Shown in pieces: positions 12,526-39,188 of a DNA stretch of 45,703 nucleotides. The notes under the pieces are model-generated. The model searched no databases. It was not told the DNA's origin and saw nothing but the letters and a program-made list of their open reading frames with translations. The translations under genes and the position numbers were made by a program. Source of the DNA: Ignavibacteria bacterium RIFCSPLOWO2_12_FULL_56_21 (GTDB lineage Bacteria > Bacteroidota > Ignavibacteria > UBA10030); NCBI GenBank assembly GCA_001802945.1, contig MHAK01000124.1, positions 1 to 45,703 on the forward strand, written 5' to 3'. How positions within the stretch are numbered: the first letter of the stretch is position 1; the number at the start of each line of letters is the position of its first letter.

Positions 12526-14052
12526 GTGTTGAGTCGCTCCTTCCCACGCATAGTTTTTCTCGCGGGATGTATCTGCGCCCCCCTCTCAGCTCAATGGTAT
12601 GTCTCTCCCGTTGGAAACGACTCGAACCCCGGCACTATCACCCAACCATTCTTGACGATCCCCAAAGCCCATTCAGTCGCTCTCGCAGGCGATACGATCT
12701 ACGTTCGGGGCGGAACGCATGAGCTGGGGGCTACCATCACACTGTCAAAGAGCGGGACCTCTGCTGAGATGTATCATCTGATCGCATATCCGGGTGAACG
12801 TCCGCTCCTCGATTTCTCCTCCATGGCCACGAGCAGCACCAATAGAGGAATTCGCGTCAGCGGAAGCTATTGGCGCTTGTACGGACTCGACGTACAGGGG
12901 GCGGGAGACAATGGGATGAACATGTCGGGTTCGAACAATATCGTGGAGTACTGTTCCTTCTTCGAAAACCGTGACAGCGGTGTGCAGCTCGACAACGGCG
13001 CTTCATCGAACCATTTCATCAACTCTGACTCGTATTTCAATACGGACCCGCTGTTCGAAAACGCCGATGGATTCGCTCCGAAGCTCACGGTCGGAAGCGG
13101 GAACCGGTTCACCGGATGCAGGGCTTGGCAGAACGCGGATGACGGTTGGGACGGTTACCTTCGCGGGACAAATGACGTGACGACGACCCTCGATCAGTGC
13201 TGGTCGTTCATGAACGGATACTTGAAAGACGGAACCCCAAGCCTTCCTAATGGCGATGGGAACGGATTCAAGATGGGGGGAAGCGACGACAAGCTGCTGC
13301 GCCACAACATGGTCCTCATTCGATGTCTTGCGTTCGACAACAGGGTGAAGGGGTTCGACCAAAACAACAATCGCGGAAGCATGTCGTTGATCAACTGTAC
13401 ATCGTACGGGAACGGAACGAACTACAGCATCCCCGGGCCGATCGACAGCGGGATGGTTGCTACACTGACAAATTGTGCTGTTTTCGGAAGCACGGGCACG
13501 ATCATGGACTCTGCCACTCTCTCGACGAACAGTTGGATGAGCCCGTTCGTGGTCACCTCATCGGATTTTGCAAGCTTCGACACGACCGGCATGCGCGGTC
13601 CCCGAAATCCCGATGGCAGCCTTCCGCGGCTTCCATTCATGCGCCTCGCGGACGGGAGCGATCTCATCGACGCGGGAACCTCGGTCTCCCTGCCGTTCTT
13701 CGGGACGGGCATAGACATCGGATCGTTTGAATTCGATCCCAGCACGTTCGTCGCATCGAGTGGCGACATTCCGGACTATTTTGCGGTACTGCAGAACTAT
13801 CCGAACCCGTTCAATCCCGTCACACACATCGACTACGCCATCCCTTCGGACGGCATCGTGACATTCCAGATTCACGATGTCATGGGAAGGCTGCTTCTTA
13901 CCAGCTCCAACATGCACGAACAAGCCGGTCGATTCTCCTTGCGTTGGGAGGGCTCCGATACCGAAGGGCATGCCCTGCCGACTGGGGTCTACTTTGCCAC
14001 GCTAAGGTTCGGCCGCGCCGCAAGGACGCTGAAACTCTTCCTTCTCAAATGA
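12526..14052 (+). CDS. Pectate lyase, polysaccharide lyase family 9, T9SS-exported
   Basis: 508 residues. PL9 enzymes cleave polygalacturonate by beta-elimination, using calcium. Layout: signal peptide (1-22), right-handed parallel beta-helix (about 25-390), then a T9SS sorting domain (about 420-508) starting with NYPNPFNPVT. The PL9 catalytic set is intact: D181 in NADGFAPK, the calcium cluster D205/D206/D209 in DDGWD, and the probable base K249 in GNGFKMGG. The 24-residue spacing between the first two groups matches Pel9A. The start is GTG 12526 or, better placed 6 bases after AGGAG, TTG 12529. The stop overlaps the receptor start as ATGA. It is the first gene of the locus and is likely displayed on the cell surface. 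Confidence 0.92.
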   Translation: MLSRSFPRIVFLAGCICAPLSAQWYVSPVGNDSNPGTITQPFLTIPKAHSVALAGDTIYVRGGTHELGATITLSKSGTSAEMYHLIAYPGERPLLDFSSMATSSTNRGIRVSGSYWRLYGLDVQGAGDNGMNMSGSNNIVEYCSFFENRDSGVQLDNGASSNHFINSDSYFNTDPLFENADGFAPKLTVGSGNRFTGCRAWQNADDGWDGYLRGTNDVTTTLDQCWSFMNGYLKDGTPSLPNGDGNGFKMGGSDDKLLRHNMVLIRCLAFDNRVKGFDQNNNRGSMSLINCTSYGNGTNYSIPGPIDSGMVATLTNCAVFGSTGTIMDSATLSTNSWMSPFVVTSSDFASFDTTGMRGPRNPDGSLPRLPFMRLADGSDLIDAGTSVSLPFFGTGIDIGSFEFDPSTFVASSGDIPDYFAVLQNYPNPFNPVTHIDYAIPSDGIVTFQIHDVMGRLLLTSSNMHEQAGRFSLRWEGSDTEGHALPTGVYFATLRFGRAARTLKLFLLK

Positions 14053-23755: not shown

Positions 23756-25120
23756 ATGTCGATCCGCATGGGTCTGTCACTTTGTGCCGTTCTCTTTCTC
23801 CTTGCGGATCATCCCCTCGTTTCCCAGGTTCTCGCTTTTCCCGGAGCGGATGGCTTCGGGAGATTCACAACGGGCGGGCGCGGCGGCGTGGTCTGTGAAG
23901 TGAACAACCTCAACGATGACGGTCCAGGCAGCTTCCGGGCCGCCATCCAAACGAAGGGCACGCGGACGATCGTCTTTAGAGTGTCGGGCACTCTCTCGCT
24001 CGAGTCGGACCTGGTCATAAGGCACGGAGACTTGACGATCGCGGGCGAGACCGCTCCCGGTGGAGGCATTTGTGTGCGCAATTATCCGACGATCATCGAG
24101 GCTGACAACGTGATCATTCGCTTCATGCGGTTCAGGCTCGGTGACGAGAAACGACAGGCGGCGGATGCCATGAGTGCCATAGGGCGGCGGGACATCATTG
24201 TCGATCACTGTTCCTTCAGCTGGGGCATGGACGAGGTGGCGACGTTCTATAACAATGAGAACTTCACCTTGCAGTGGTCGATCGTGTCTGAAAGCCTCGA
24301 CAGCTCATACCATCCGAAGGGCAAACACGGCTATGGCGGCATCTGGGGCGGTTACCGGGCCACGTTCCATCATAACCTGCTCGCACATCACTCAAGCCGA
24401 AACCCCCGGTTTCAGGGGGGACGATGGGAAGGTTGGGAAAAGAAAGAAGAGGTCGACTTCAGGTACAACGTGGTATTCAACTGGGGATTCGAATGTGCGT
24501 ATGGCGGCGAGTCCGGCAAACAGAACATCGTGGCGAATTACTTCAAACCCGGGCCGGCCTCGGTCCATCCCCGGCGCTTTCTCTCCCCCAGTGATGGGAA
24601 TGGCCGGTGGTACATCGCCGAGAATTTTGTGTCCGGGTACCCGGAGATCACGCAGGACAACACTCTCGGAATCGAGAAGAAATACGGAGAGCAACTTCTG
24701 GTCTCCTCTCCGTTCATTTCCGAGATGAGCGCGACCGAGACTGCGGGGCTCGCGTATGATGCGGTACTCCGGTGTGCGGGGGCCACTCTCCCCCGCCGGG
24801 ACTCGGTCGACGTCCGGATCCTTGCCGAGGTTGCGACCGGGATTCCGACCTACGGCGATGCCTCTTACGCCCTTGATCATCCCAAGTTGTCACGTTCGAA
24901 ACCTCTCGGGATCATCAATTCTCAGTCAACCGTCGGCGGATGGCCTCGCCTTTCCTCCGAACCTCCTCCTGCGGATTCGGACCGTGACGGTATCCCGGAT
25001 TCCTGGGAACAACGACACGGACTCGACCCCGCAAATGCGGATGACGGCCGTGTGATCACGCGGAGCGGATACACGAACCTCGAACTGTACCTTCACGATC
25101 TGGCATCTTCAAGACCATGA
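23756..25120 (+). CDS. Pectate lyase, polysaccharide lyase family 1
   Basis: 454 residues from ATG 23756. A signal peptide ends near VSQVLA, and the mature enzyme starts with AFPGADGFGRFTTGGRGG, the usual start of Bacteroidota-type PL1 lyases. Family motifs include NDDGPGSFRAAI, TIAGETAPGGGICVRNYPT, DHCSFSWGMDE and the SRNPRF segment with the catalytic arginine. A C-terminal DSDRDGIPDSWE motif is a calcium-binding thrombospondin type 3-like repeat. There is no T9SS domain, so it is probably periplasmic or otherwise retained. An ATG at 23714 would add 14 polar residues before the signal. The stop overlaps GH28 by 4 bp. It cleaves polygalacturonate by beta-elimination. Confidence 0.9.
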   Translation: MSIRMGLSLCAVLFLLADHPLVSQVLAFPGADGFGRFTTGGRGGVVCEVNNLNDDGPGSFRAAIQTKGTRTIVFRVSGTLSLESDLVIRHGDLTIAGETAPGGGICVRNYPTIIEADNVIIRFMRFRLGDEKRQAADAMSAIGRRDIIVDHCSFSWGMDEVATFYNNENFTLQWSIVSESLDSSYHPKGKHGYGGIWGGYRATFHHNLLAHHSSRNPRFQGGRWEGWEKKEEVDFRYNVVFNWGFECAYGGESGKQNIVANYFKPGPASVHPRRFLSPSDGNGRWYIAENFVSGYPEITQDNTLGIEKKYGEQLLVSSPFISEMSATETAGLAYDAVLRCAGATLPRRDSVDVRILAEVATGIPTYGDASYALDHPKLSRSKPLGIINSQSTVGGWPRLSSEPPPADSDRDGIPDSWEQRHGLDPANADDGRVITRSGYTNLELYLHDLASSRP

Positions 25121-26520
25121 ACATTTCCCGAATCACAGTCCCTGTCGCAGCGTTCCTTATCCTTATGAACCCGATAGGATCTTGTGCTCAACAGCAAAGT
25201 CGGGTTCGAGGCTGGGAGGATCTCCCCAGGATCATGGAATCCATCACACCGCCTGCATTCCCCGACCGGTCTTTATCCATCCTCGCATTTGGCGCGGTTG
25301 GCGACGGGTCGACTGACTGCACTCGTGCTTTCAGGAGTGCAATCGATTCATGCAGTGCGGCGGGTGGCGGGAGGGTCATTGCACCGGCCGGAAGATACCT
25401 GACCGGGGCGATTCACCTGAAATCGAATGTCAATCTCGTCGTCCAGAAAGATGCCGTCGTACTCTTCAGCACGGACCCGAATGATTACCTGCCGGTCGTG
25501 TACACCCGGTGGGAAGGGGTCGAGTGCATGAACTATTCGCCCTTGATCTACGCATACGAGCAATCGAATATCGCGGTGACCGGCGAAGGAACACTCGACG
25601 GTCAGGGAGCCAGCAACAACTGGTGGTCCTGGAACGGAAAGGAAATATACGGTTGGAAGGAAGGGATGCCGAACCAGCGGGCTGCACGTAAGCAGTTGTT
25701 TGAAATGGCAGAACAGGGGATACCGGTGGCACAAAGAGTGTTTGGAGACGGGTTCTATCTTCGTCCGAACTTTTTCCAACCGTACAAATGCACCAACATC
25801 CTCGTCCAGGGCGTGACATTTCGGGACTCTCCGATGTGGTTCCTCCACCCTGTACTGTCCAGGAACATCAGCATACTCAACGTGACCGTTGTGGGTCTTG
25901 GCCCCAACAATGACGGATGCGACCCCGAGTCATCGAGCGATATTCTCATTCAGGGATGCCTGTTCGATACGGGAGACGATTGCATTGCGATCAAAGCCGG
26001 GCGGAACGCCGACGGCCGCCGCCTCGCAATGCCGAGTGAGAACATCGTAGTGCGCAACTGCACCATGAAGGATGGCCATGGCGGCGTCGTCATCGGAAGC
26101 GAGATGACCGGCGGTGTCCGGAACGTGTTCGCAGAAGACTGCCGCATGGACAGTCCGAACCTTGACCGCGCATTGCGAATCAAAACGAATGCGGTGCGCG
26201 GAGGTGTCGTTGAGAACGTGTTCTTCAGAAACGTGACGATCGGACAGGTCAAGGAATCCATTCTCATGATCAACTACTACTACGAGGAGGGTGACAAGGG
26301 ATCGTTCCTCCCAACCGTCCGTAACGTGGTAATGGAAAACGTCGTGAGCAGCCGGAGCGAATACGGGGTCTGGATCAAGGGTTTCCCGAATGCACAGCCG
26401 TCCGACATCATCCTTCGTGATTGTACGTTTGGCAATGTTGAGAAGGGAAACCTCATCGAGAATGCCAAGAGTGTCATGTTCACAAATGTGCGGATCAACG
26501 GAGAACTCACCACCAAATGA
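25117..26520 (+). CDS. Polygalacturonase-type glycoside hydrolase, family 28
   Basis: 467 residues. A signal peptide (1-24) is followed by a parallel beta-helix with an N-terminal FGAVGDGSTDCTRAF motif. All GH28 signatures are present: NND at 264-266, the DTGDD pair D287/D288, H321 in GHGG, and RIK at 354-356. The acids D266, D287 and D288 make up the inverting active site. The enzyme hydrolyses alpha-1,4-galacturonosyl bonds or a rhamnogalacturonan variant. The signal ends IGSCAQ, so it may be a lipoprotein or be cut after CAQ. Both ends overlap neighbours by 4 bp. Confidence 0.93.
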   Translation: MNISRITVPVAAFLILMNPIGSCAQQQSRVRGWEDLPRIMESITPPAFPDRSLSILAFGAVGDGSTDCTRAFRSAIDSCSAAGGGRVIAPAGRYLTGAIHLKSNVNLVVQKDAVVLFSTDPNDYLPVVYTRWEGVECMNYSPLIYAYEQSNIAVTGEGTLDGQGASNNWWSWNGKEIYGWKEGMPNQRAARKQLFEMAEQGIPVAQRVFGDGFYLRPNFFQPYKCTNILVQGVTFRDSPMWFLHPVLSRNISILNVTVVGLGPNNDGCDPESSSDILIQGCLFDTGDDCIAIKAGRNADGRRLAMPSENIVVRNCTMKDGHGGVVIGSEMTGGVRNVFAEDCRMDSPNLDRALRIKTNAVRGGVVENVFFRNVTIGQVKESILMINYYYEEGDKGSFLPTVRNVVMENVVSSRSEYGVWIKGFPNAQPSDIILRDCTFGNVEKGNLIENAKSVMFTNVRINGELTTK

Positions 26521-27734
26521 CTCCGAAAAGATCAATCCCTGACGTCGCTGTTCTCGTTTTTTCATTCTTGTTCTTCCCCGACCTCGTTTGTGCTCAGGAC
26601 CCGGGGCTCGGATTGCCCGCACCCTCAAAGAATGCCTGGTCGGTTCAAATGGCCGAGTCATTCATTGCCCGCAACCGTGATTCCATTTCGTATCCCGATT
26701 CCAAACGACCTGAGAGGTGGGATTACGAGCAAGGAGTGATCCTCGAAGCGTTGAAGCAGGTGTGGAAGGCGGGAGGCGACGAACGCTATCTCGAGTACCT
26801 TCGAAGGAGCATCGATCGATTCGTCGAAGACGACGGTTCGATCCGGACGTACGAGTTCACATCCTACAACCTCGACAACATTAACACCGGCAGACAAGTG
26901 CTGTTCCTGTTTGAACGGACGGGATTGCTGAAATACCGTGCCGCGGCCGAAACTCTCCGCTTTCAATTACGGCAACATCCCCGAACACTTAGCGGAGGCT
27001 TCTGGCACAAGAAGATCTATCCCTACCAGATGTGGCTAGACGGAATTTACATGGCAGAACCATTCTATGCCCGTTGCTCGGCCATGTTCGGGGACACTGC
27101 GGCATTTGAGGACATCGCTCATCAGATCATCGAGATCGAGCGGAGAACGCGCGACCCAAAAACGGGATTGTTGTATCACGGCTGGGATGAAAGCCACCAC
27201 CAGCGGTGGGCAGATACGGCGACCGGATGCTCGCCCCATTTCTGGGGCCGGGCGATGGGTTGGTACGCCATGGGAATTGTCGACGTTCTCGACGTCTTCC
27301 CGTCGAACCATCCCAAACGACCTGCATTGCTTTCCGTTTTCAAGCGGGTTATCGATGCAATCGCCGCGTACCAGGACGCCGAATCGGGCGTTTGGTATCA
27401 GGTTCTCGATCAGGCCGACAGAAAAGGAAACTATAAAGAAGCCTCCTGTACCGCGATGTTCGTCTACGCCATCGCAAAGGGGGTTCGCATGGGATACCTC
27501 GACCGTTCGGCGCGTGCGATCGCGGAGAGGGGCTTTGAAGGAATGATCGACGAGTTTGTGACAAAGGACGCAGACGGACTCCCGAACCTGAATCATGTCT
27601 GTTCGGTATCCGGACTCGGAGGGAATCCGTTCCGAGACGGGAGTTTCGAGTATTATGTCGGCGAACCCCAGAGAACGAACGACCTCAAAGGTGTCGGTCC
27701 ATTTATTCTAGCGGCTGTGGAACTGGGAAAGTAA
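26517..27734 (+). CDS. Unsaturated rhamnogalacturonyl/glucuronyl hydrolase, family GH105
   Basis: 405 residues with a signal peptide (about 1-27), so the enzyme is exported, probably to the periplasm. The (alpha/alpha)6 barrel has the GH105 hallmark MWLDGIYMAEPF with the catalytic D175, plus WDYEQG, GFWHKKIYPYQ, HGWDES and WGRAMGWYAMG. GH105 enzymes remove the unsaturated uronic acid left by pectin lyases, which fits the PL1 and PL9 neighbours. It overlaps GH28 by 4 bp and ends the enzyme block before the inverted repeat upstream of uxaC. Confidence 0.93.
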   Translation: MTPKRSIPDVAVLVFSFLFFPDLVCAQDPGLGLPAPSKNAWSVQMAESFIARNRDSISYPDSKRPERWDYEQGVILEALKQVWKAGGDERYLEYLRRSIDRFVEDDGSIRTYEFTSYNLDNINTGRQVLFLFERTGLLKYRAAAETLRFQLRQHPRTLSGGFWHKKIYPYQMWLDGIYMAEPFYARCSAMFGDTAAFEDIAHQIIEIERRTRDPKTGLLYHGWDESHHQRWADTATGCSPHFWGRAMGWYAMGIVDVLDVFPSNHPKRPALLSVFKRVIDAIAAYQDAESGVWYQVLDQADRKGNYKEASCTAMFVYAIAKGVRMGYLDRSARAIAERGFEGMIDEFVTKDADGLPNLNHVCSVSGLGGNPFRDGSFEYYVGEPQRTNDLKGVGPFILAAVELGK

Positions 27735-27810: not shown

Positions 27811-29241
27811 ATGAACCCGTTTAGGCTGAACGACGACCGCTATTTCGACCCGGATCCCCAAGTACGTTCTCTTGCGAGGGATCTCTATGAACGCGTCAAA
27901 AACCTTCCCATCGTAAGCCCCCATGGTCACGTGGACCCGGCATTGTTCGTCCATAATTCTCCGTTTCCGAATCCGACGGAACTCTTCATAACGCCCGACC
28001 ACTACCTCTTTCGGATGCTGTATTCTCAAGGGATATCGATGGAGAGTTTGGGCGTTCCGAAAAAGGACGGGTCACGGGCAGAGACGGATGCGCGGAGGAT
28101 CTGGCAACTATTTGCAGACAATTACTTCCTGTTTGCAGGGACCCCGTCGCAAGCCTGGCTGCAGTATGAGTTATATGTAGTGCTCGGGGTTCCTGATCCA
28201 CTCACCGGCGGAACTGCACAGCGGGTCTTTGACTATATCAGCGAAGTCCTCCAGACCCCCGCTTTCCGTCCTCGTGCACTGTACGACCGATTCCGCATTG
28301 AGATGCTGGCGACCACCGATGCCGCAACTGATACGCTCGATCACCACAAGACGCTTCGGCGCGACATTTGGAAGAACGGGGTCGTCCCGACCTTCCGCCC
28401 GGATGGAGTGACCAACCTCCTCGACCCAAACTGGAAGAAGAACATTGCTCTGCTTGGGAAAAGGGTCGGCAAGGAGATCCGCACGTTTGCTGCGTTTGTG
28501 AAGGCGCTTGAAGAACGTCGGGAATTTTTCAAAAAGATAGGCGCGAAGGCCACGGACCATGGGATTTTGTCACCTTACACACACCGGCTGACCACAGCGC
28601 AGGCCTCCGCCCTGTTCTCGAAGGCCCTGAAGGGAAAGGCCACACCGAAGGATGCTGCGGCATTCACCGGTCATATGCTCATGGAGATGGCACGCATGAG
28701 CGTAGAGGATGGATTGGTGATGCAAATCCATCCCGGAGCAGACCGCAATCACAATGCGGCGGTTTACCATGTCTACGGTCCCGATAAGGGTGCCGACATT
28801 CCGATCGCCACCGAATACACGAACAACTTGCGGGAACTCCTGAATGCGTACGGCAACGACCCGCGGTTCTCCGTGGTCGTTTTCACGCTCGACGAGTCGG
28901 CCTATTCCCGCGAGCTCGCCCCGCTCGCCGGACATTATCCAGCCATGAAACTCGGACCTCCGTGGTGGTTCCACGATAGTATCAACGGCATGAGGCATTT
29001 CCGCGAACGCATCACTGAGACGGCCGGATTCTACAACACCGTCGGGTTCATCGACGACACACGTGCGTTCCTCTCGATTCCCGCCAGACATGACCTGAGC
29101 AGACGTGTGGATGCGAACATACTGGCAAACCTCGTGGTCCGGCACATTCTCACGAGGACGGAGGCCGAACAGATCGGCAGCGACCTTGCCTACAATCTCG
29201 TCCGCAAGGCCTATCGCATTGACACGAAAGGCATATCATGA
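27811..29241 (+). CDS. uxaC: Uronate (glucuronate/galacturonate) isomerase
   Basis: 476 residues, the usual family length. UxaC interconverts D-galacturonate with D-tagaturonate and D-glucuronate with D-fructuronate in the cytoplasm. The N-terminal metal-binding VSPHGHVDP motif (about residues 32-40) of this amidohydrolase-fold family is present, with IHPGADRNHN, TEYTNNLRELLN and the PPWWFHDS segment further on. No signal peptide. It is the first of the intracellular genes and overlaps uxaE by 4 bp, so the two are tightly coupled. Confidence 0.95.
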   Translation: MNPFRLNDDRYFDPDPQVRSLARDLYERVKNLPIVSPHGHVDPALFVHNSPFPNPTELFITPDHYLFRMLYSQGISMESLGVPKKDGSRAETDARRIWQLFADNYFLFAGTPSQAWLQYELYVVLGVPDPLTGGTAQRVFDYISEVLQTPAFRPRALYDRFRIEMLATTDAATDTLDHHKTLRRDIWKNGVVPTFRPDGVTNLLDPNWKKNIALLGKRVGKEIRTFAAFVKALEERREFFKKIGAKATDHGILSPYTHRLTTAQASALFSKALKGKATPKDAAAFTGHMLMEMARMSVEDGLVMQIHPGADRNHNAAVYHVYGPDKGADIPIATEYTNNLRELLNAYGNDPRFSVVVFTLDESAYSRELAPLAGHYPAMKLGPPWWFHDSINGMRHFRERITETAGFYNTVGFIDDTRAFLSIPARHDLSRRVDANILANLVVRHILTRTEAEQIGSDLAYNLVRKAYRIDTKGIS

Positions 29242-30812
29242 CTTCGATAGAACGGCTTGTCGGGCAACCGGACGAGCTGGCGAAGAACGGACATTCTCTT
29301 ATTCCCGTGGTCTCCGGATCCGCATCGCTCCAGGTATACCCGCACTCCCTGCGCTCATCCGGACCGATGCTCTTCTTTGTTGCCCGGCAGGGACCACAGA
29401 AATCTTTGTTCATCTATTCGCCGTCGGGCCTCACCGGGGCTGCAGCGAATCTTGTGGGAGAGCCATTTCCCACCGGACCCCTGCAGGGCAGCATGCGTTG
29501 CTGTCCCCTCGTCCACGGGAACGCCAGGATCATCCAGACGATCTTTTCATTTACACAACCGGCCGTTGTGGGCTTGCGACAGTCATTCGGGTTTGGCGAC
29601 CGGCTCGGCATAGCAAATCCCGGCCATGTGCGGTCGCTCACGGGAAGCTCCTTTTTCCCCGTGCTCGCGCAGCAGTCCATTCGGGAATTGACGCGCACGA
29701 AGCGTGAGGCAGAGGATGTCATGGACGCTGCGGTCTGGGCGGTTTTTCAAGAGGGTTATACCTCAGGTTTTGGCGCCGACGCCGACCATTTGAAAACAAC
29801 CGCCGATATCGACCGCATGGTCAAAGCAGGATTTACGATGTTCACGTTCGACCCGAGCGAACACGTGGTCAACGCAGCGGACACGATGTCTGTGGAAGGG
29901 CTCGCAAAGCGGGCGGCCTCTCATCCGTGGGCAGACCTCAACGACAACATTGCAGCAATGGTTGCCCGGTACGAAGGCAAGACGGTGGTTATATCGAAAG
30001 CATTCACGATCACCCCAGACCGCCAGGAAGTACTTCGGGCGGTCGTGAAATACGGAGGTTCGCTCGCCCACATTCGGCGTTTGAACGATCACCTCCTGCA
30101 GTCATACCCGGGTCACCCACGCGAGGTCGAAGTATCGGTCGATGAAACGGAGTCGGTCACGTCGCCGTTCGAACATTTTTTCATGGCCTCCGAACTTCAG
30201 CGGCTCAAGGTCGAGATCGTCAGCCTCGCACCGCGTTTTGTGGGTGAGTTCGAGAAAGGAATCGACTACAAAGGGACGCTCGACGTCTTTCGAACGGAGT
30301 ACCTCCGGCATGTCGAGATCTCGGACTTTTTCGGGTCACACAAGATCAGTTTTCATTCCGGCAGCGACAAGTTCGGCGTCTACGAGACAGTCGGAAAGAC
30401 CGGCCGGGGAAAGATACATGTGAAAACGGCCGGGACCAGCTACCTGGAAGCGCTCAAAGTCGCAGCGTTACAAGACGCCGGGCTTTTCCGGGAGATCCTG
30501 GATTTCTCTACCGGACTCTTCGAGCAGGAGAAGGCCTCGTATCACGTGTCGGCCCGACTATCGAACGTGAAGAAGGGGGCTTCGTATTCGGATTCAGAAC
30601 TTCCCACACTATTCGGGTCGGATGATATCCGTCAGGTGTTGCACGTGACTTTCGGGAAAGTCCTGACCTCCGCTGGACCGGACGGGAAGAGCCTCCTCTT
30701 CAGAGACCGTCTGATGGCATGTTTGGACACGCACGAGGATGTTCACTATGATATCCTCGTAAAACATTTCAAGCGCCACCTGGACCCATTGGAGTCCTTA
30801 GCGAAACGTTGA
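29238..30812 (+). CDS. uxaE: Tagaturonate epimerase (UxaE family)
   Basis: 524 residues. UxaE, first described in Thermotoga, converts D-tagaturonate to D-fructuronate, merging the galacturonate and glucuronate branches without the UxaB/UxaA pair. Features I associate with the family are GFGADADHLKT, GFTMFTFDPSEHV, the VSVDETE...TSPFEHFF block, APRFVGEFEKGIDYKG, KISFHSGSDKF and HVKTAGTSYLEAL. The ATGA overlap with uxaC supports consecutive steps. No UxaB or UxaA homologue is in the window. Confidence 0.87.
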   Translation: MTSIERLVGQPDELAKNGHSLIPVVSGSASLQVYPHSLRSSGPMLFFVARQGPQKSLFIYSPSGLTGAAANLVGEPFPTGPLQGSMRCCPLVHGNARIIQTIFSFTQPAVVGLRQSFGFGDRLGIANPGHVRSLTGSSFFPVLAQQSIRELTRTKREAEDVMDAAVWAVFQEGYTSGFGADADHLKTTADIDRMVKAGFTMFTFDPSEHVVNAADTMSVEGLAKRAASHPWADLNDNIAAMVARYEGKTVVISKAFTITPDRQEVLRAVVKYGGSLAHIRRLNDHLLQSYPGHPREVEVSVDETESVTSPFEHFFMASELQRLKVEIVSLAPRFVGEFEKGIDYKGTLDVFRTEYLRHVEISDFFGSHKISFHSGSDKFGVYETVGKTGRGKIHVKTAGTSYLEALKVAALQDAGLFREILDFSTGLFEQEKASYHVSARLSNVKKGASYSDSELPTLFGSDDIRQVLHVTFGKVLTSAGPDGKSLLFRDRLMACLDTHEDVHYDILVKHFKRHLDPLESLAKR

Positions 30813-30858
30813 GGTACACGTTTCATCTTGCACTTTTTCACCTTTCGCAGATAACGAC

Positions 30859-32310
30859 ATGAACCGATCCGACATCGGCCTCATTGGCCTTGCAGTCATG
30901 GGCGAGAACCTCGTCCTCAACATGGAAAGCAAAGGATTTACCGTCTCTGTCTTCAATCGAACCGTCGCAAAGGTGGACCAATTCATCAGCGGCAGGGCTC
31001 GGGGGAAGCGCATCATCGGTACCCGATCGATCGAGGAGTTTACACGTTCTCTCATGACACCGCGAAAGATCATGCTGATGGTGAAAGCAGGACGACCTGT
31101 CGATGAGTTCATCGAGCAGCTTCTTCCCCTCCTGGAAAAGGGAGACATTATTATCGACGGAGGAAATAGTCACTACCCCGACTCCACGCGGCGAACCGAG
31201 TATCTCGAAGGCAAAGGATTTCGATTCGTCGGGACGGGCGTATCGGGAGGCGAAGAAGGCGCTTTGCTCGGTCCTTCCATCATGCCCGGCGGTTCGCCGT
31301 CGGCCTGGGAACATGTGAAGCCGATCTTCCAATCGATCGCTGCAAAAGTGAACGACGGCACCCCTTGTTGTGATTGGGTGGGAGAAAAGGGAGCCGGGCA
31401 TTTTGTCAAAATGGTGCACAATGGCATTGAATACGGCGACATGCAGCTCATCTGTGAAGCATATCTGCTGATGAGGGAGTATCTGGGAATGACCGCAGAT
31501 GAAATGTCGGGCGTGTTTGCGGACTGGAACCGAAGGGAGTTGGACAGCTATCTTGTCCAGATTACGGGCGAGATCCTCGCACACAAGGATGTGGACGGCT
31601 CTCCACTTGTCGACAAGATCCTCGACACGGCGGGTCAAAAAGGGACGGGCAAATGGACCGGTGTAGCCGCCCTCGATCTGGGCATTCCCCTGACGCTTAT
31701 CGGAGAAGCCGTCTTCGCGAGGTGCCTCTCCGCCGTCAAAGAGGAACGGGTCAAAGCATCACGCGTCCTGAGCGGCCCAAAGCATTCCTTCACCGGGAAC
31801 CGCGGGGAGTTTCTCGCCGACCTCGAAAAAGCGCTCTATGCCTCGAAACTCGTGTCCTACGCCCAGGGATATACGCTCATGGCGGCCGCAGCGCAAGAGT
31901 ACGGATGGAACCTCAACTATGGAGGCATTGCGCTGATGTGGCGGGGAGGATGCATCATCCGGTCGGCGTTCCTCGGGAGGATCAAAGAAGCGTTCGACAA
32001 GAATCCCCGTCTGAGCAACCTGCTTCTCGACCCCTTCTTTACGGAGAAGATGGATGACGTGCAGGGGGCATGGCGAAAAGTCGTGGCCTCGGCATTCTCG
32101 AACGGCGTTTGGATACCCGCCCTTTCGACCGCGCTGGCATATTACGACGGACTGCGGAGCGAACGCCTGCCTGCGAACCTCCTGCAGGCACAGCGGGACT
32201 ACTTCGGGGCTCACCAGTACGAACGGATCGACAAGCCAAAAGGGGAGTTTTTTCACACGAATTGGACAGGACGGGGAGGCGACACCGCCTCGACCGCGTA
32301 TACGGTGTAA
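30859..32310 (+). CDS. gnd: 6-phosphogluconate dehydrogenase, decarboxylating
   Basis: 483 residues, full length. It oxidises and decarboxylates 6-phosphogluconate to ribulose-5-phosphate. Seen: the Rossmann motif GLAVMGENLVLN, IDGGNSHYPDSTRR, GVSGGEEGALLGPSIMPGG, the catalytic KMVHNGIEYGD helix, and the C-terminal RDYFGAHQYER ... FHTNWTG. All are as expected. The location is unusual: hexuronate operons normally lead to KDG and KDPG through UxuA, not to 6-phosphogluconate. It follows uxaE by 46 bp and precedes an ExuT-like transporter. Confidence 0.96.
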   Translation: MNRSDIGLIGLAVMGENLVLNMESKGFTVSVFNRTVAKVDQFISGRARGKRIIGTRSIEEFTRSLMTPRKIMLMVKAGRPVDEFIEQLLPLLEKGDIIIDGGNSHYPDSTRRTEYLEGKGFRFVGTGVSGGEEGALLGPSIMPGGSPSAWEHVKPIFQSIAAKVNDGTPCCDWVGEKGAGHFVKMVHNGIEYGDMQLICEAYLLMREYLGMTADEMSGVFADWNRRELDSYLVQITGEILAHKDVDGSPLVDKILDTAGQKGTGKWTGVAALDLGIPLTLIGEAVFARCLSAVKEERVKASRVLSGPKHSFTGNRGEFLADLEKALYASKLVSYAQGYTLMAAAAQEYGWNLNYGGIALMWRGGCIIRSAFLGRIKEAFDKNPRLSNLLLDPFFTEKMDDVQGAWRKVVASAFSNGVWIPALSTALAYYDGLRSERLPANLLQAQRDYFGAHQYERIDKPKGEFFHTNWTGRGGDTASTAYTV

Positions 32311-32358
32311 CCAGCAGTTCCGGAAGGACAACTTTCTCCAGCTTCGAAAGGATATCGC

Positions 32359-33747
32359 ATGCAGCAGGACGGCGAGAGGTCTACCGTAAGAACAAGCCCA
32401 AAGGTCGGCTATTTCCGCTGGATGATCTGTGCCCTGCTTCTCTTTGGAGCGATCATCAATTACGTCGACCGGCAGGTCATCGGCATTCTCAAGCCGACGC
32501 TGATGCAAACTTTCGGCTGGACGGATGAACGCGTCTATTCCTCGATCGTCTTCTGCTTCCAGCTTGCATATGCGATCGGCTTCCTTTTCGCAGGACGATT
32601 CATGGACAAGGTGGGTGTCCGTCGCGGTTTTGCCGCGGCCGTCACGCTGTGGAGCATTGCCGCCGTTGCTCATGGAGCCGCAACATGGTTCGAAGGATGG
32701 AACTTTTCCGTCATCAACCTGGATGCGTCGACCGGGTTCACGTTCGTTACCCTCTCCGGCGCCGCCGTCGGCCTAGCGCTTGCGAGGTTTGCGCTCGGTC
32801 TTGGAGAATCGGGCGCCTTCCCGGCATCGATCAAGACCGTCGCAGAGTGGTTCCCGAAAAAAGAACGGGCACTGGCAACGGGAATTTTCAATTCTGGAAC
32901 AAATGTCGGTGCCCTGGTTACGCCGCTCGTTGTCCCGTCGATTGCTCTCTACTGGGGATGGGAGTACGCTTTCTACATTACGGGCGGCCTCGGATTCCTG
33001 TGGGTCGGCTGGTGGCTGTGGGCCTACAAGTCACCCGACGACCATCCACGTTTGAAGAAGGCTGAGCTCGACTATATACGTAGCGACCCGGCTGACCCAG
33101 TGGCAACCATTCCGTGGCGCAGTCTCCTCGGTCACAAGCAGACATGGGCGTTTGCACTTGGCAAGTTTATGACCGATCCCATCTGGTGGCTGTATCTGTT
33201 TTGGATCCCTGATTTTCTCCATCGTAACCACGGTCTCGACCTGCATTCGATCGGGCTTCCGCTTATTGTCATCTACATCGTCGCCGATGTCGGAAGTATC
33301 GGCGGGGGCTGGCTGTCATCTGCATTCTTGAAGCGTGGATGGACGCCGAACCGGGCGCGCAAGACGGCGATGCTCATCTGCGCACTGGCTGTCGTGCCCG
33401 TGACGTTCGCCGCGAACGCGACTGAACTTTGGCTGGCTGTCGGCCTCGTCGCAATCGCAGCCGCGGCCCATCAGGGCTGGTCGGCAAACCTCTTCACGCT
33501 TACGTCGGACATGTTTCCGAAGGCAGCGGTTGGTTCCGTCACCGGAATCGGAGGAACAGCGGGCGCACTTGGCGGGATGTTCATCGCGATGTTTACAGGC
33601 GCACTCCTTCAGGCAACGGGCAGTTACGTTCCTGTCTTTATCATCGCCGGTTCTACGTACTTGGTGTCGCTCGCGGTCATTCACTTTATCGTGCCTCGTC
33701 TGGAACCTGCAAAGATCGAAATCGGAGCCACACCAACCCACATATGA
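32359..33747 (+). CDS. exuT: MFS hexuronate transporter, ACS family (ExuT-like)
   Basis: 462 residues with about 12 membrane segments and a short cytoplasmic N-terminus. The first helix carries INYVDRQVIGIL, and the A-motif-like GRFMDKVGVRRG follows the second; both are typical of the anion:cation symporter family that includes ExuT and GudP. It likely brings galacturonate or glucuronate across the inner membrane by proton symport. An AAAGGA Shine-Dalgarno precedes the start. Neighbours (uxaC, uxaE, SDR UxuB-like) support hexuronate as the substrate. Mannonate or gluconate cannot be excluded. Confidence 0.85.
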   Translation: MQQDGERSTVRTSPKVGYFRWMICALLLFGAIINYVDRQVIGILKPTLMQTFGWTDERVYSSIVFCFQLAYAIGFLFAGRFMDKVGVRRGFAAAVTLWSIAAVAHGAATWFEGWNFSVINLDASTGFTFVTLSGAAVGLALARFALGLGESGAFPASIKTVAEWFPKKERALATGIFNSGTNVGALVTPLVVPSIALYWGWEYAFYITGGLGFLWVGWWLWAYKSPDDHPRLKKAELDYIRSDPADPVATIPWRSLLGHKQTWAFALGKFMTDPIWWLYLFWIPDFLHRNHGLDLHSIGLPLIVIYIVADVGSIGGGWLSSAFLKRGWTPNRARKTAMLICALAVVPVTFAANATELWLAVGLVAIAAAAHQGWSANLFTLTSDMFPKAAVGSVTGIGGTAGALGGMFIAMFTGALLQATGSYVPVFIIAGSTYLVSLAVIHFIVPRLEPAKIEIGATPTHI

Positions 33748-33757
33748 GTAAACGACC

Positions 33758-34543
33758 ATGACCAGTTTTCTTGAGGATCAATTCGGATTGAAGGGGGCTG
33801 TGGCCGTCGTGATCGGCGGCAGCGGCGTGCTGGGCGGGAGCATGGCGGTCGCCCTCGGTCGTGCGGGCGCGAATGTGGCGGTCGGCTTCAGCGGCAATGC
33901 CGACAAAGCAGGCAATCACGCCCGAACGATCACGGAATCCGGAGGCTCGGCGATCACCGTGAAAACCGACGCAGGGTCTGAATCCGGCCTACGGAAGGCA
34001 TTGGCGAAAGTGCTGGAAACTTGGGGCAAAGTCGACATTGTCGTGAATGCGCCCGGCGTGAATTCACCCACGCCCGTGTTCGACATCCCCGATGAAGAAT
34101 GGTCCAAGATCATCGACACCAACCTCAGGGGAGTGTTCTACTCGTGCAGGGTCTTCGGGAAACAGATGATCGAGCAGAAGACGGGGGGCAGTATCATCAA
34201 CATCTCCTCCGTCTCATCGGAACTGCCCTTGTCGCGGGTTTTCACGTACTCGATCTCAAAGGCCGGAGTGAACAATATGACGCGCTTCCTCGCACGGGAA
34301 TGGGCTCCGCATGGAGTCAGGGTGAACGCGATCATGCCGGGTTTCTTCCCCGCTGAGCAAAACAGGAAGATCCTCACCGAGGAACGGCGCAACATGATCT
34401 TCGGCCATACGCCAATGGGACGCTACGGCGAACCCCACGAACTGTCCGGCGCTCTTCTGTGGCTGGCTTCGCGGAATGCTTCTTCATTTGTGACTGGCGC
34501 GATCATTCCGGTCGACGGCGGCTTCACGTCCATGACCATCTGA
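33758..34543 (+). CDS. uxuB: SDR-type D-fructuronate reductase / D-mannonate oxidoreductase
   Basis: 261 residues, classical short-chain dehydrogenase. It has a GGSGVLGGSMA cofactor motif, the catalytic serine in INISSVSS, Y164 and K168 in YSISKAG, and the C-terminal PGFFPAEQNRKIL ... HTPMGRYGEP ... SFVTGAIIPVDGGF segment. I associate that tail with SDR-type UxuB (as in Bacillus), unrelated to the E. coli mannitol-dehydrogenase-type UxuB. It would reduce fructuronate to mannonate. KduD (also an SDR) is the main alternative, but the PAEQNR segment favours UxuB. It begins 10 bp after exuT. Confidence 0.75.
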   Translation: MTSFLEDQFGLKGAVAVVIGGSGVLGGSMAVALGRAGANVAVGFSGNADKAGNHARTITESGGSAITVKTDAGSESGLRKALAKVLETWGKVDIVVNAPGVNSPTPVFDIPDEEWSKIIDTNLRGVFYSCRVFGKQMIEQKTGGSIINISSVSSELPLSRVFTYSISKAGVNNMTRFLAREWAPHGVRVNAIMPGFFPAEQNRKILTEERRNMIFGHTPMGRYGEPHELSGALLWLASRNASSFVTGAIIPVDGGFTSMTI

Positions 34544-34566
34544 AAAGCTGAAAGGTCCAGCGTTCC

Positions 34567-35751
34567 GTGAACATCGTCATCGATAGCAAGAACCCAAATG
34601 CCGAAATGCTCTTCGGACACCTTGGGAACGTTTGCCTCCTCCCCACGGCCGAGATCACGGCCGACTCAGTTCGCGATGCTGACGTCCTCGTCGTACGCTC
34701 GGAGACCAAGGTCGGAAGAGACTTGCTGGACGGGTCGAAAGTCCGATTCGTCGGGACGGCAACCATCGGAACCGACCACATCGACCAGGAATATCTGAAA
34801 GCCAAGAATATCGGATTCGTGAGCGCCCCGGGCAGCAATTCCAATTCCGTCGCAGAATACGTCGTGGCGGGCATGCTTCTGCTCGCCGTTCGAACTGGAA
34901 CACCGCTGGCGAGGCAGACCATCGGCGTCGTCGGGGTCGGGAACGTCGGATCAAAAGTTGCGCGCATGGGTTCAGCGCTCGGCATGACGGTGCTTCAGAA
35001 CGATCCTCCATTGGCTCGTTCGACCGGCGACGTCGGATATCTCCCGCTCGAATCGCTGATGAATGCTGACATCATCTCCCTTCACGTGCCACTGACAACA
35101 GCGGGCAACGATCCGACACGGCACCTGTTCGACAGCGACCGCATCTCGCGAATGAAGCCCGGAGCTGTGCTCTTCAACACATCGCGCGGAGCCGTGGTGG
35201 ACACTGCCGTGCTGAAAACCGCTCTTGCACAGAATCGGCTCTCGGGTGCCGTGCTCGACGTCTGGGAAGGGGAACCTTCCATCGATACCGGCTTGCTGGA
35301 CCTTGTAACACTTGGGACGCCCCATATCGCGGGTTACTCGCTCGACGGGAAACTGAACGCCATAGCGATGGTCTATGACGGCGTCTGCAAACACTTCGGT
35401 AAAGAGCCGCGACACACGTTGGAAGCTCAGGAGCAAGACGGTCACGCCATCGACATACACGCACCCGTGAGAAGCCTTGAACAGGCCTTGCATGACGTTG
35501 TCGCAAAATGTTATGACATCGAGGGAGACGACAGGATGTTGCGAACTGCAATGTCCGTTCCATCTCAGGAGCGCGCGGCCCGCTTCAGGAAACTTCGGAC
35601 GGATTATCCCATTCGACGCGAATTCGCGCACACGATTGTCGACGTGGATCCCTCAGAGATCGCCGTGCGCAAGATGCTCTCAGCGCTCGGTTTTGTCGTG
35701 AAGGAAAGCCCGCGATTCTCCTCACAGAAGGAGCGGGCGCAGAACTCTTGA
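34567..35751 (+). CDS. pdxB: Erythronate-4-phosphate dehydrogenase (PdxB-like 2-hydroxyacid dehydrogenase)
   Basis: 394 residues from a GTG start. The D-2-hydroxyacid dehydrogenase fold shows FVGTATIGTDHID, SAPGSNSNSVAEYV, the GVVGVGNVGSKVA cofactor motif, HVPLT, and PHIAGYSLDGK with the catalytic histidine. The C-terminal region (YPIRREF, LGF) matches the PdxB dimerisation domain, so this is a full PdxB rather than a generic dehydrogenase. PdxB makes 3-hydroxy-4-phosphooxobutanoate for pyridoxal-phosphate synthesis. A vitamin B6 gene between a mannonate oxidoreductase and a LarA-like epimerase is odd; a recruited role on a sugar acid is possible. Confidence 0.85.
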   Translation: MNIVIDSKNPNAEMLFGHLGNVCLLPTAEITADSVRDADVLVVRSETKVGRDLLDGSKVRFVGTATIGTDHIDQEYLKAKNIGFVSAPGSNSNSVAEYVVAGMLLLAVRTGTPLARQTIGVVGVGNVGSKVARMGSALGMTVLQNDPPLARSTGDVGYLPLESLMNADIISLHVPLTTAGNDPTRHLFDSDRISRMKPGAVLFNTSRGAVVDTAVLKTALAQNRLSGAVLDVWEGEPSIDTGLLDLVTLGTPHIAGYSLDGKLNAIAMVYDGVCKHFGKEPRHTLEAQEQDGHAIDIHAPVRSLEQALHDVVAKCYDIEGDDRMLRTAMSVPSQERAARFRKLRTDYPIRREFAHTIVDVDPSEIAVRKMLSALGFVVKESPRFSSQKERAQNS

Positions 35752-35782
35752 ATCGCTCAACGAACCATATTGAGGTTGCCCT

Positions 35783-37057
35783 ATGTCCTTGATGGGTACA
35801 GGATCGGCCGATCGGGCCATCAAGCAAGAAGAGGTGCGGAGGATCTGCGCGGAGTTCTTCGAACAGGAGAATCTTCGGGGAAAACGCGTTCTTGCGGTCA
35901 TTCCCGACAATACCCGGACCGCTCCCATCGACGTTTTCTTTCCCGTGTTGTACGACATTTTCGCCGACAGGCCGAACCGTCTCGACTTCCTCATCGCTCT
36001 TGGGACTCATCCGCCGATGAGCGAAGCCGCGATCGACAAGCGGCTCGGACTCAGACCCGGAGTACGGGCTTCACGGTATCCGAACGTCAGAGTCTTCAAC
36101 CATGCGTGGAAAGACCCCTCCACCCTCCGATCTGTGGGCACACTGTCAGCCGAGGACGTTAACAAGCTTTCACACGGACTCCTGCACAAACCGGTCAATG
36201 TCACCGTCAATCGCCTCGTGATGGAGTACGATGTCGTCCTGATCATCGGTCCGACCTTTCCGCACGAAGTCGTCGGATTCTCGGGCGGAAACAAATACCT
36301 CTTTCCGGGTATCTCGGGTCAGGACATTATCGACATGTTCCACTGGCTCGGCGCTCTCATGACGAGCCCGGTCATCATTGGGCGGAAACGCACGCCGGTC
36401 CGGGCCGTCGTCGATGCCGCTGCTTCCCTTCTGCCGACGAAGCGACTGTGCATGAGCCTCGTCGTAAGCGGAAAGAGCCTCCTTGGACTCTATTGCGGGA
36501 CGCCCGAAGAAGCATGGTCGGCGGCAGCAGACCTCTCTTCCTCCGTCCACGTGAAATTCTTCACTCGTCCGTTTCGGAGCGTTCTTTCGTGCCCCGCCCC
36601 CATGTACGACGAACTCTGGGTGGCAGCAAAGGCTGCGTATAAGCTTGAACCCGTAGTGGCTGACGGTGGAGAACTCATCATTTACGCGCCTCATCTCCGC
36701 GAGATTTCGGTGACACACGGGGCATTCATTGAGCAGGTTGGATACCATGTCCGCGACTATTTCGCGTCACGATTGGCCGAATTCTCGCACATTCCCGGCG
36801 GAGTGCTGGCACATTCCACGCACGTCAAGGGAGTGGGAACGTACGTGCACGGCAAGGAAACTCCTCGCATCACAGTGACCCTCGCAACCGGCATCCCTCG
36901 GGAAAGTTGTGAACGGGTCAACCTCGGCTATCGTGACCCCCGTTCCGTGAACCCGAGCGAGTGGCAGGACAAGGAGGATGAAGGAAAGTTGTATGTTCCC
37001 GATGCCGGCGAAACGCTGTACCGGTTGCACAACGACCCTTTCCCAGAATTCTCGTAA
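35783..37057 (+). CDS. LarA-like nickel-pincer-nucleotide-dependent 2-hydroxyacid racemase/epimerase (DUF2088)
   Basis: 424 residues, with GAGGT 6 bases before the ATG. LarA proteins use a nickel-pincer nucleotide to racemise or epimerise alpha-hydroxyacids by hydride transfer. Key residues seen here: D42/R45 in PDNTR, H76 in GTHPP, H161 in FPHEVVGFSGG, K171 in GGNKY and H187 in MFHWL. The spacings H-10-K-16-H equal those of lactate racemase (H174, K184, H200), so the cofactor site looks intact. Within the superfamily, lactate, malate and D-gluconate (GntE) specificities are known. Between uxuB, pdxB and a sugar kinase, C2 epimerisation of a hexonate (mannonate/gluconate) is the natural guess. 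No LarB, LarC or LarE cofactor genes are in the window. Confidence 0.85.
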   Translation: MSLMGTGSADRAIKQEEVRRICAEFFEQENLRGKRVLAVIPDNTRTAPIDVFFPVLYDIFADRPNRLDFLIALGTHPPMSEAAIDKRLGLRPGVRASRYPNVRVFNHAWKDPSTLRSVGTLSAEDVNKLSHGLLHKPVNVTVNRLVMEYDVVLIIGPTFPHEVVGFSGGNKYLFPGISGQDIIDMFHWLGALMTSPVIIGRKRTPVRAVVDAAASLLPTKRLCMSLVVSGKSLLGLYCGTPEEAWSAAADLSSSVHVKFFTRPFRSVLSCPAPMYDELWVAAKAAYKLEPVVADGGELIIYAPHLREISVTHGAFIEQVGYHVRDYFASRLAEFSHIPGGVLAHSTHVKGVGTYVHGKETPRITVTLATGIPRESCERVNLGYRDPRSVNPSEWQDKEDEGKLYVPDAGETLYRLHNDPFPEFS

Positions 37058-37067
37058 GGAGCTACCC

Positions 37068-38150
37068 ATGAGCAATGTGTTCAGCGTCCCGGCGAAAGGC
37101 CAGTTTGATCTCATCAGTCTGGGAGCACTTGTCCATCGCCTGGACCCTGGCGTTGTCCCATTTCGGAAGGCAACGTCCTGCAGCATCCATGTGAGCGGGG
37201 GCGAATTCAACGTCGCTGCGAATCTTGCCGATTGCTTCGGCCTCCAGTCCGGCATTGCCACGGCCATGGTGGAATATCCCATCGGCGATCTCATCGCCGA
37301 GCGGGTTCGTGCAATGGGAGTGCACCCCTTCTACAGGCGCTTCAAGCATAACGGCGTGAACGGACCAAACATGGCAACTGTCTACAGCGACCGCGGCCAC
37401 GGAGTCCGGCCTCCGGTAGTATTCTACAACAGGTCGAACGAAGCGGCCGCGCTCTTGAAGCCGGGAGACTTCGACTGGAAGCAGATCTTCTCAGGGGGTG
37501 TGCGGTGGTTCCACAGCGGTGGCATCTTTGCTGCGCTTTCAGAGACGACTGGGAATGTCATCGTTGACGCCATGAAGGCCGCGAAGGCCGCCGGAGCCGT
37601 CACCAGTTTCGACCTCAATTTCCGGGCGAAACTCTGGAACATCTGGGGAGGCGAAGCGAAGGCTGTCGAGGTCATCAAACGGATTGTCGAGTACGTCGAT
37701 GTCCTTGTCGGGAACGAGGAAGACCTTCAAAAAGGATTGGGGATTCCGGGACCGGAGGTCGCCGCCGCATCCAAGCTCGACCCGTCGGCATTCTTCGCCA
37801 TGATGGATCGGGTACGAACAATGTACCCACACGTCAGGATCGTTGCGACGACGCTGCGCGAGGTTCACTCGACAAACAGGCACAGCTGGGGGGCTGTGGC
37901 ATGGATCGACGGCAAGACTTTCACCGCTCCGACGGTGGAGCTCGACGTCCTTGACCGGGTCGGGGGCGGAGACGGGTTTGCCTCGGGATTCTTCTACGGC
38001 CTACTGACCGGAGAGTCGCCGGACGAAGCGGTGAAACTCGGCTGGGCACACGGCGCTCTGGTCACGACCTTCCCGGGAGATACAACGATGGCTACGCTGG
38101 ATCAGGTTCGGGCGTTCGTCAAAGGCGGGTCCGCTCGCATCCAACGATGA
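37068..38150 (+). CDS. kdgK: PfkB-family sugar (acid) kinase, KdgK-like
   Basis: 360 residues from ATG 37068, chosen because AAGGAG lies 6-7 bases upstream. A longer frame into the LarA gene has no such signal. PfkB signatures are SGGEFNVAANLADCFG at the N-terminus and DRVGGGDGFASGFFYG at the C-terminus, with catalytic D302. The second motif, with GGGDG rather than GAGDA, is the type I associate with 2-keto-3-deoxygluconate kinases. KDG is the textbook substrate in pectin loci; given the adjacent LarA-like protein and gnd, gluconate or another aldonate is also possible. It overlaps the regulator by 4 bp. Confidence 0.75.
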   Translation: MSNVFSVPAKGQFDLISLGALVHRLDPGVVPFRKATSCSIHVSGGEFNVAANLADCFGLQSGIATAMVEYPIGDLIAERVRAMGVHPFYRRFKHNGVNGPNMATVYSDRGHGVRPPVVFYNRSNEAAALLKPGDFDWKQIFSGGVRWFHSGGIFAALSETTGNVIVDAMKAAKAAGAVTSFDLNFRAKLWNIWGGEAKAVEVIKRIVEYVDVLVGNEEDLQKGLGIPGPEVAAASKLDPSAFFAMMDRVRTMYPHVRIVATTLREVHSTNRHSWGAVAWIDGKTFTAPTVELDVLDRVGGGDGFASGFFYGLLTGESPDEAVKLGWAHGALVTTFPGDTTMATLDQVRAFVKGGSARIQR

Positions 38151-39178
38151 GACGAAAAGTCCATATTACGCTCGACGACATCGCACAACAATTGAGCGTC
38201 TCGCGCGTCACCGTATCCAAAGCGTTGCGCGGCCATCCCGATATTTCCTCGGAGATGACAAAGAAGGTGCGGGCAATAGCGGACGAGCTTGGGTACAGTC
38301 CCAACATCTTTGCAAGGAATCTCTCGGCACGACGCTCACAGATGATGGGGCTTGTCGTACCGAAGATCGCCCACTACTTCTTTGGGTCTGTGATCGAGTC
38401 GGTCTACAACGTCGCGTTCGAGAACAACTACGAGATCATCCTGATGGTGTCGCAGGAGAATCCGGAACGGGAGCGGAAACACATCGAAACGCTGATGTCG
38501 ATGCGGGTCGACGGGATCATGGTATCGATCTCCGAGCATACCCGCAATTTTGACGTCTTTCGAAGAGTGCGGAGCCGCGGGATACCGCTGGTTTTCGTTG
38601 ACCGAGCGCCGGTTCCGATGCCCCAGGGGTTCAGCTCCGTGGTCGTCGACGATCGCGGGGGTGCATTCCAGGCGACCGAACAGGCTATTCGTATCGGACA
38701 CAAAAGACTTGCGCACCTCGCCGGGCCTCAAGATGTGAGCATTGGACGGGAGCGGGAGGAGGGATTCAAAGAAGCCCTGCGAGCACACGGTCTCCCCATT
38801 CGCGACGAATGGATCATTGAAGCGGGATTTGGAAAGGAGGACGGCTACAGAGGATTCAAACGATTCTATGACAGCAAAAACCTCCCGGATTTTATCTTCG
38901 CAGTGACGTATCCCGTCGCCCTGGGAGTGTATGAGGCGGCACGGGATTTTGGGGTGCGGATTCCGCAGGATGTGGACATCATGTGTTTCGGAGACAGCGA
39001 TATGCACCGTTTTATCTCGCCGTCCCTGAGTTGTGTAAACCAACCTACGGCGGAACTTGGGCGAAAGGCGTTCCAGTTGCTGCTGGAGACCATCCGGCAC
39101 TCCGACGATTTTCTCGCGCAGCACGTGCGAATCAAGACCGACCTGATCATCCGGGAGACCTGCCGGGGAAAGATCTAG
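38147..39178 (+). CDS. LacI-family transcriptional regulator
   Basis: 343 residues. The N-terminal helix-turn-helix and hinge (ITLDDIAQQLSVSRVTVSKALRGHPDIS, then LGYSPNIFARNLS) are textbook LacI family. A periplasmic-binding-protein-like effector domain follows (MGLVVPKIAHYFFGSVIESV, VFVDR, VSIGREREEGF, MCFGDSD). It is translationally coupled to the kinase by ATGA, so it is part of the hexuronate operon and probably controls it in response to an intermediate. Candidate sites are the palindrome at 12423 and the inverted repeat at 27746. The effector cannot be read from sequence. Confidence 0.93.
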   Translation: MRRKVHITLDDIAQQLSVSRVTVSKALRGHPDISSEMTKKVRAIADELGYSPNIFARNLSARRSQMMGLVVPKIAHYFFGSVIESVYNVAFENNYEIILMVSQENPERERKHIETLMSMRVDGIMVSISEHTRNFDVFRRVRSRGIPLVFVDRAPVPMPQGFSSVVVDDRGGAFQATEQAIRIGHKRLAHLAGPQDVSIGREREEGFKEALRAHGLPIRDEWIIEAGFGKEDGYRGFKRFYDSKNLPDFIFAVTYPVALGVYEAARDFGVRIPQDVDIMCFGDSDMHRFISPSLSCVNQPTAELGRKAFQLLLETIRHSDDFLAQHVRIKTDLIIRETCRGKI

Positions 39179-39188
39179 CCCGGAAAAT

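Follow-up and report, generated by a model that had tools for sequence, protein, structure and literature searches.

A predicted GntE-type D-mannonate/D-gluconate 2-epimerase in a pectin-degradation operon of an Ignavibacteria bacterium

The closest described counterpart of the locus reported here is the aldH-pelB-gnd-uxaRED-gntEK operon of Thermotoga maritima, which is regulated by UxaR, induced by pectin and includes, as pelB, an exo-polygalacturonase gene (PMC3750489). The T. maritima epimerase GntE2 (LarAH20, Q9WYS3, PDB 4NAR) converts D-mannonate to D-gluconate in vitro with a KM of 17 mM and a kcat of 197 s-1, and the hexonate groups 18-20 of LarA homologues carry a signature consisting of an E-V or E-S loop after H174 and a tryptophan in alpha-11 (PMC7583248). 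A related route joining the isomerase pathway for galacturonate to 6-phosphogluconate and Gnd is known from Lactobacillus suebicus, where the order of reactions, with a mannonate kinase preceding a 6-phosphomannonate 2-epimerase, was measured in extracts and no genes were assigned (PMC6978723).

The stretch of Ignavibacteria DNA analyzed here (45,703 nucleotides, hereafter the window) contains a run of genes (25117-40037) that all read in one direction, on the + strand, and are separated by no more than 76 bp where they do not overlap. The run opens with a GH28 polygalacturonase-type hydrolase (25117..26520; PF00295, 1.2e-33) and a GH88 unsaturated glucuronyl/galacturonyl hydrolase (26517..27734; PF07470, 1.1e-112), followed by the uronate isomerase UxaC (27811..29241; PF02614, 6e-81; NF002794, 523 bits for a cut-off of 387), the tagaturonate 3-epimerase UxaE (29238..30812; PF16257, 1e-157) and the decarboxylating 6-phosphogluconate dehydrogenase Gnd (30859..32310; TIGR00873, 762 bits for a cut-off of 427). 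Next come an MFS transporter of the hexonate/hexuronate type (32359..33747), scoring 223 bits on the D-galactonate transporter subfamily model TIGR00893, below its cut-off of 395, and an SDR (33758..34543) predicted to be a UxaD-like fructuronate reductase that makes D-mannonate, with the D-mannonate oxidoreductase PRK08277 as its top NCBIfam match (269 bits against a cut-off of 281) and 1vl8 as its top PDB match. A PdxB-like gene (34567..35751), the gntE-like LarA homologue (35783..37057), a PfkB-family kinase gene (37068..38150), a LacI-family regulator that is likely that of the operon (38147..39178; PF00356, PF13377) and an EamA gene complete the order.

The pectin-degrading part of the locus extends upstream of the GH28 gene, with a PL9-like right-handed beta-helix protein (12526..14052, + strand; PF22842, 2.3e-25). 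Also encoded upstream of GH28 are a TonB-dependent receptor (13944-17006), a protein whose C terminus is a T9SS tail (21880-23706) and three open reading frames without a Pfam match (16963-19224, 20264-21757 and 23714-25120). The pectin and sugar-acid setting proposed in the initial annotation is thus borne out by GH28, GH88, UxaC, UxaE, 6-phosphogluconate dehydrogenase and the D-mannonate-oxidoreductase-like SDR. A promoter and terminator scan of the operon returned counts near those of shuffled sequence (7 versus 6.3 promoters and 19 versus 14.3 terminators) and was not used.

The gntE-like gene starts with ATG and encodes a 424 aa protein. Its matches to Pfam Lar_N (PF09861, 1.4e-21) and to 4NAR, its best PDB relative by sequence (1.2e-62), are far above chance, and the protein is a member of the LarA superfamily; lactate racemases match it at about 1e-6 in the same PDB sequence comparison. 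We aligned the protein to L. plantarum LarA and GntE2 in a residue map whose numbering agrees with PMC7583248. The map confirms the initial proposal that H161, K171 and H187 are equivalent to the LarA pincer-site residues H174, K184 and H200, and likewise places D42, R45 and H76 opposite D72, R75 and H108, while adding a catalytic lysine absent from the earlier list, K283 (LarA K298), which completes the set. The NPN-binding LarA residues R75, K184 and H200 are accordingly matched by R45, K171 and H187, and the catalytic residues D72, H108, H174 and K298 by D42, H76, H161 and K283. All seven are invariant in an alignment of 22 sequences (the window protein, 20 from its phylum and one from a plasmid) and in another of 40 (the window protein and 39 from several phyla). 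The substrate loop reads E162-V163 and W279 lies in alpha-11, in agreement with the hexonate signature of groups 18-20.

An AlphaFold2 model of the protein, built from the 40-sequence alignment, has a mean pLDDT of 94. Its closest PDB structure is again 4NAR (Foldseek 3.4e-42), with a VIA-align Z of 50.3 and an rmsd of 2.0 A over 401 residues. Lower values were obtained for lactate racemases (Z 33-36, NPN-bound 5HUQ among them) and for malate racemase Mar2 (Z 28); the alignment to 5huq (Z 32.9) spans residues 8-421 and establishes the LarA fold across both domains. Weaker structural matches, outside the LarA family (Z about 4-6), were taken as reflecting a common nucleotide-binding arrangement and left uninterpreted. 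The superposition proposed as a check in the initial annotation therefore holds at the level of the fold, both on GntE2 (401 residues) and on NPN-bound LarA (about 370 residues), and the match to holo-LarA suggests that the listed side chains would meet in one pocket.

The window locus is the same system as the T. maritima operon with some parts changed, as judged from the near-identical gene content and the activity of GntE2 on D-mannonate. Both loci combine GH28, gnd, uxaE, a uxaD-like SDR, gntE and a kinase gene in one run, both genomes hold larB, larC and larE, and the two epimerases share the fold and all cofactor and catalytic residues. They differ in that the window protein belongs to a separate clade with 35.5% identity to GntE2 over 383 aligned positions, that its loop is E-V whereas that of GntE2 is E-S, that the kinase is of the PfkB type instead of gntK, that a pdxB-like gene is inserted and that LacI replaces UxaR as the regulator. 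Furthermore, T. maritima has kdgAK-uxuBA, whereas UxuA (mannonate dehydratase) was not detected in the 95%-complete draft genome of the window by a search that was positive in five controls, T. maritima included. LarAH group 18 (NF052594, putative hexonate epimerase) shares with the window protein the superfamily, the E-V loop and the tryptophan, and in related genomes occupies the same slot beside an SDR, a PfkB kinase and gnd, but it forms a separate branch at about 30% identity. Membership in that group was rejected, the window protein scoring 181.5 bits on NF052594 for a cut-off of 500, compared to 674 and 621 bits for the true members at loci L057 and L061.

We conclude, with a probability of roughly 0.78, that the window protein is an NPN-dependent 2-epimerase of the GntE kind, converting D-mannonate to D-gluconate, through which pectin degradation would feed the pentose phosphate pathway. 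We infer its substrate, the kinase step, the direction of flux and the loading of NPN from homology and gene order. The gene context of GntE proteins in groups 19 and 20 (uxaE, SDR, kinase and gnd) is that of the window locus, and 26 of 101 loci have gnd no more than 6 kb away from gntE. The initial guess of a hexonate or related sugar acid as substrate can thus be narrowed to D-mannonate/D-gluconate on the strength of the neighboring genes and the E162-V163/W279 signature. In the proposed pathway, D-galacturonate would be isomerized by UxaC to tagaturonate, epimerized to fructuronate by UxaE and reduced to D-mannonate by the SDR; the window epimerase would then yield D-gluconate, which a kinase, probably that of the PfkB type, would convert to 6-phosphogluconate for oxidation by Gnd to ribulose-5-phosphate. 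Inversion at C2 of D-mannonate would follow the LarA mechanism, with the nickel-pincer nucleotide held by R45, K171 and H187 and tethered to K171, and with D42, H76, H161 and K283 as the predicted catalytic residues, among which H76 and H161 would form the acid/base pair while a hydride moves to and from the cofactor.

Since UxuA went undetected, D-mannonate arising from UxaE and the SDR would leave through GntE, the kinase and Gnd, making GntE the way out for mannonate in this genome. This replacement of UxuA is local: a phylum-wide exchange of the two enzymes was considered and is not supported, because 58 related genomes revealed no anticorrelation, with UxuA present in 9 of the 38 GntE-bearing genomes versus 1 of the 20 others.

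A different order of reactions, in which D-mannonate is first phosphorylated by the PfkB kinase and 6-phosphomannonate is then epimerized by the LarA homologue to the 6-phosphogluconate used by Gnd, appears unlikely. It has a precedent in the L. suebicus route, which differs in this phosphorylation-first order from our preferred reading, and it would fit both the proximity of the kinase, epimerase and gnd genes here and the failure to find a canonical gluconokinase in this genome. Because GntE2 itself has a high KM for free mannonate, a different native substrate is conceivable even for the Thermotoga enzyme. However, GntE2 does act on unphosphorylated mannonate (PMC7583248), the pocket has no demonstrated phosphate-binding site, and in Catenovulum a more distant relative adjoins a gluconokinase gene. 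Less likely still is the epimerization of another acid of the uronate pathway, as has been suggested for GntE1 (group 19); D-glucarate/D-mannarate and an altronate-type hexonate are examples. The uronic-acid context of GntE1 and its very high KM for mannonate of 120 mM (PMC7583248) lend this some credit, as does the E-V loop of the window clade in place of the E-S of GntE2, but the run encodes UxaE, a UxaD-like SDR and Gnd together, a set that matches the path from mannonate to gluconate step by step, and no aldarate or altronate dehydratase was identified among its annotated genes. Finally, a classical lactate racemase (PDB 5HUQ, 2YJG) lying by chance in a pectin locus is highly improbable: the LarA fold and all the NPN-binding and catalytic residues are held in common, but identity to LarA is about 22-23%, the LarA loop F175-F176 is replaced by E162-V163, the lactate racemase equivalog NF033504 scores 63.9 bits for a curated cut-off of 460 and no lactate gene was identified near the window protein.

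A GntE-type epimerase in a UxaE-type galacturonate route is an observation ordinary in kind. Enzymes of this type were already known from Thermotoga, and the window protein, with its predicted activity, adds a member about 35% identical to GntE2 and extends the Thermotoga route from galacturonate to the pentose phosphate pathway to another bacterial lineage. The value of the locus is carried by three accompanying features open to testing, namely the PfkB kinase, the PdxB-like neighbor of gntE and the occurrence of such epimerases in genomes that lack the cofactor genes.

The PfkB-family sugar-acid kinase (37068..38150, PF00294) is a predicted gluconate (or mannonate) 6-kinase whose start codon is uncertain, the longest open reading frame beginning at 36978. 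Searches for P-loop GntK and FGGY kinases found no canonical gluconokinase in the window's genome, which makes the PfkB-type kinase the gluconokinase candidate; a weak P-loop GntK match proved to be shikimate kinase, and the FGGY matches were GlpK and a XylB-like (xylulokinase-like) kinase. On the simplest reading, gluconate would be the substrate of the operon kinase. Alternatively, mannonate could be phosphorylated first and 6-phosphomannonate would then be what the epimerase acts on, or the kinase could be a KDG kinase serving the unsaturated uronates released through GH88, a role consistent with its nearest solved structure by sequence, the KDG kinase 2afb. Relatives of the kinase at 76-82% identity accompany GntE and Gnd at five further loci from distant lineages (L041, L050, L057, L059 and L072).

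The PdxB-like protein, a predicted 4-phosphoerythronate dehydrogenase (34567..35751), scores 410 bits on NF001309 against a cut-off of 434, carries DUF3410 and matches 3oet at 4e-79. Its gene directly precedes gntE in the window, and gntE has a pdxB homologue as its immediate same-strand neighbor, with gaps of up to 325 bp, at 12 other loci (L042, L046, L050, L053, L059, L062, L066, L069, L070, L078, L085 and L102). This neighbor is more common where gnd is present (8 of 26 versus 4 of 75 loci; Fisher p 0.0018, calculated on loci that are non-independent). The PdxB substrate, 4-phosphoerythronate, inhibits 6-phosphogluconate dehydrogenase and poisons gluconate-fed cells (PMC6449344), and expression of E. 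coli pdxB helps cells poisoned by it (PMC12445079). PdxB may therefore protect Gnd by removing this inhibitor during high pentose-phosphate flux; the rival explanation is that the gene serves plain vitamin B6 synthesis.

Members of the window clade, at 48-64% identity, occur in Bacteroidetes, Calditrichaeota, Planctomycetota, Verrucomicrobia, Chloroflexi, Ignavibacteriales, cyanobacteria and others; the nearest named homologue is from a 'Bacteroidetes bacterium', Embleya replicons carry relatives at 49% identity, and the viral contigs searched returned none. This nearest homologue and the T9SS-type tail on a protein encoded upstream of GH28 both suggest a host in the Bacteroidota group. We know of no characterized member of this clade in Bacteroidota, Planctomycetota, Verrucomicrobia, Chloroflexi or cyanobacteria, its placement relative to GntE1 excepted, and the 40-sequence alignment provides a ready sequence set for it. 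In a tree without GntE1, the clade groups to the exclusion of GntE2 and group 18 (support 91); how these three lineages branch differs between methods, FastTree giving 0.5 for one arrangement and IQ-TREE 78 for another. The window clade could correspond to group 19 (GntE1). Among 82 named or plasmid loci, many of them on short contigs, the neighbors include an SDR in 42, Gnd in 17, UxaC in 15 and UxaE in 9.

Group-18 proteins at about 30% identity take the same position in the window's phylum (L055-L059), within runs of SDR, PfkB kinase, LarA homologue and Gnd, often with UxaC-UxaE, such that two LarA clades about 30% identical (L055-L059 versus L040-L054) fill one operon slot in one phylum. 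On the Catenovulum adriaticum plasmid pCadTS8_2 (L061), we observed uxaC, a TRAP transporter, a gluconokinase gene, a LarA homologue, a short larC and larB, the LarA homologue, a more distant relative, being flanked by the gluconokinase gene on one side and larC-larB on the other, close to uxaC.

The window's genome, a 3.36 Mb draft in 138 contigs with 95.1% completeness, contains one Lar_N protein. The genome search proposed in the initial annotation recovered larB (contig C22, 251 bits), larC (contig C118, 469 bits) and larE (contig C101, 316 bits), all above their curated cut-offs and on three separate contigs, and NPN can therefore be made there. A wider survey identified a GntE-type match in 38 of 395 genomes of the phylum. 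Both larB and larC are present in 14 of these 38 and neither in the remaining 24, none of which has a LarE above the cut-off, although LarE was found in the four positive controls searched alongside. Four of the 24 genomes (G179, G124, G188 and G302) consist of a single contig and are 98-99% complete, and the G179 epimerase is 54% identical to the window protein and adjoins a Gnd 70% identical to the window's. An intact pincer motif was seen at every locus fetched, which covers 19 of the 24 genomes (loci including L010, L014, L015, L017-L019, L021, L022, L024-L029, L031-L033, L036 and L038); in the other five (G031, G062, G361, G093 and G164) the epimerase was detected by search only and lies outside the motif count.

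An intact pincer motif alone is consequently no proof of a home-made cofactor. The earlier claim that the window protein is a real nickel enzyme gains from the presence of larB, larC and larE in its own genome, but the part of the argument that relied on the motif is unsafe in view of the 24 related genomes. The converse arrangement, larBCE without larA, is known to occur (PMC11796402), while the literature that we consulted on NPN enzymes yielded no discussion of larA without larBCE. From gene content, larBCE-free genomes would obtain NPN from other microbes, make it by an unfamiliar route or not need it; should sharing or import of the cofactor prove real, NPN would resemble a community vitamin. 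A joint reading, in which these sugar-acid epimerases would function without NPN synthesis, the PfkB proteins would constitute a new gluconate/mannonate kinase family and PdxB would spare Gnd from 4-phosphoerythronate, is tentative, and we consider it somewhat doubtful as a whole.

Two further observations concern these gene families. Genomes of family f43 that lack larB, larC and larE encode a second LarA homologue, about 29% identical (for example, G215 contig C86, 28082-28888, and G258 contig C97, 53537-54349). Three genomes from the family to which the window belongs have larB adjacent to, and on the same strand as, a gene with a weaker match to the LarB model, probably purE (G000 contig C22, 33195-34377; G004 contig C44, 10863-12062; G228 contig C28, 17705-19041).
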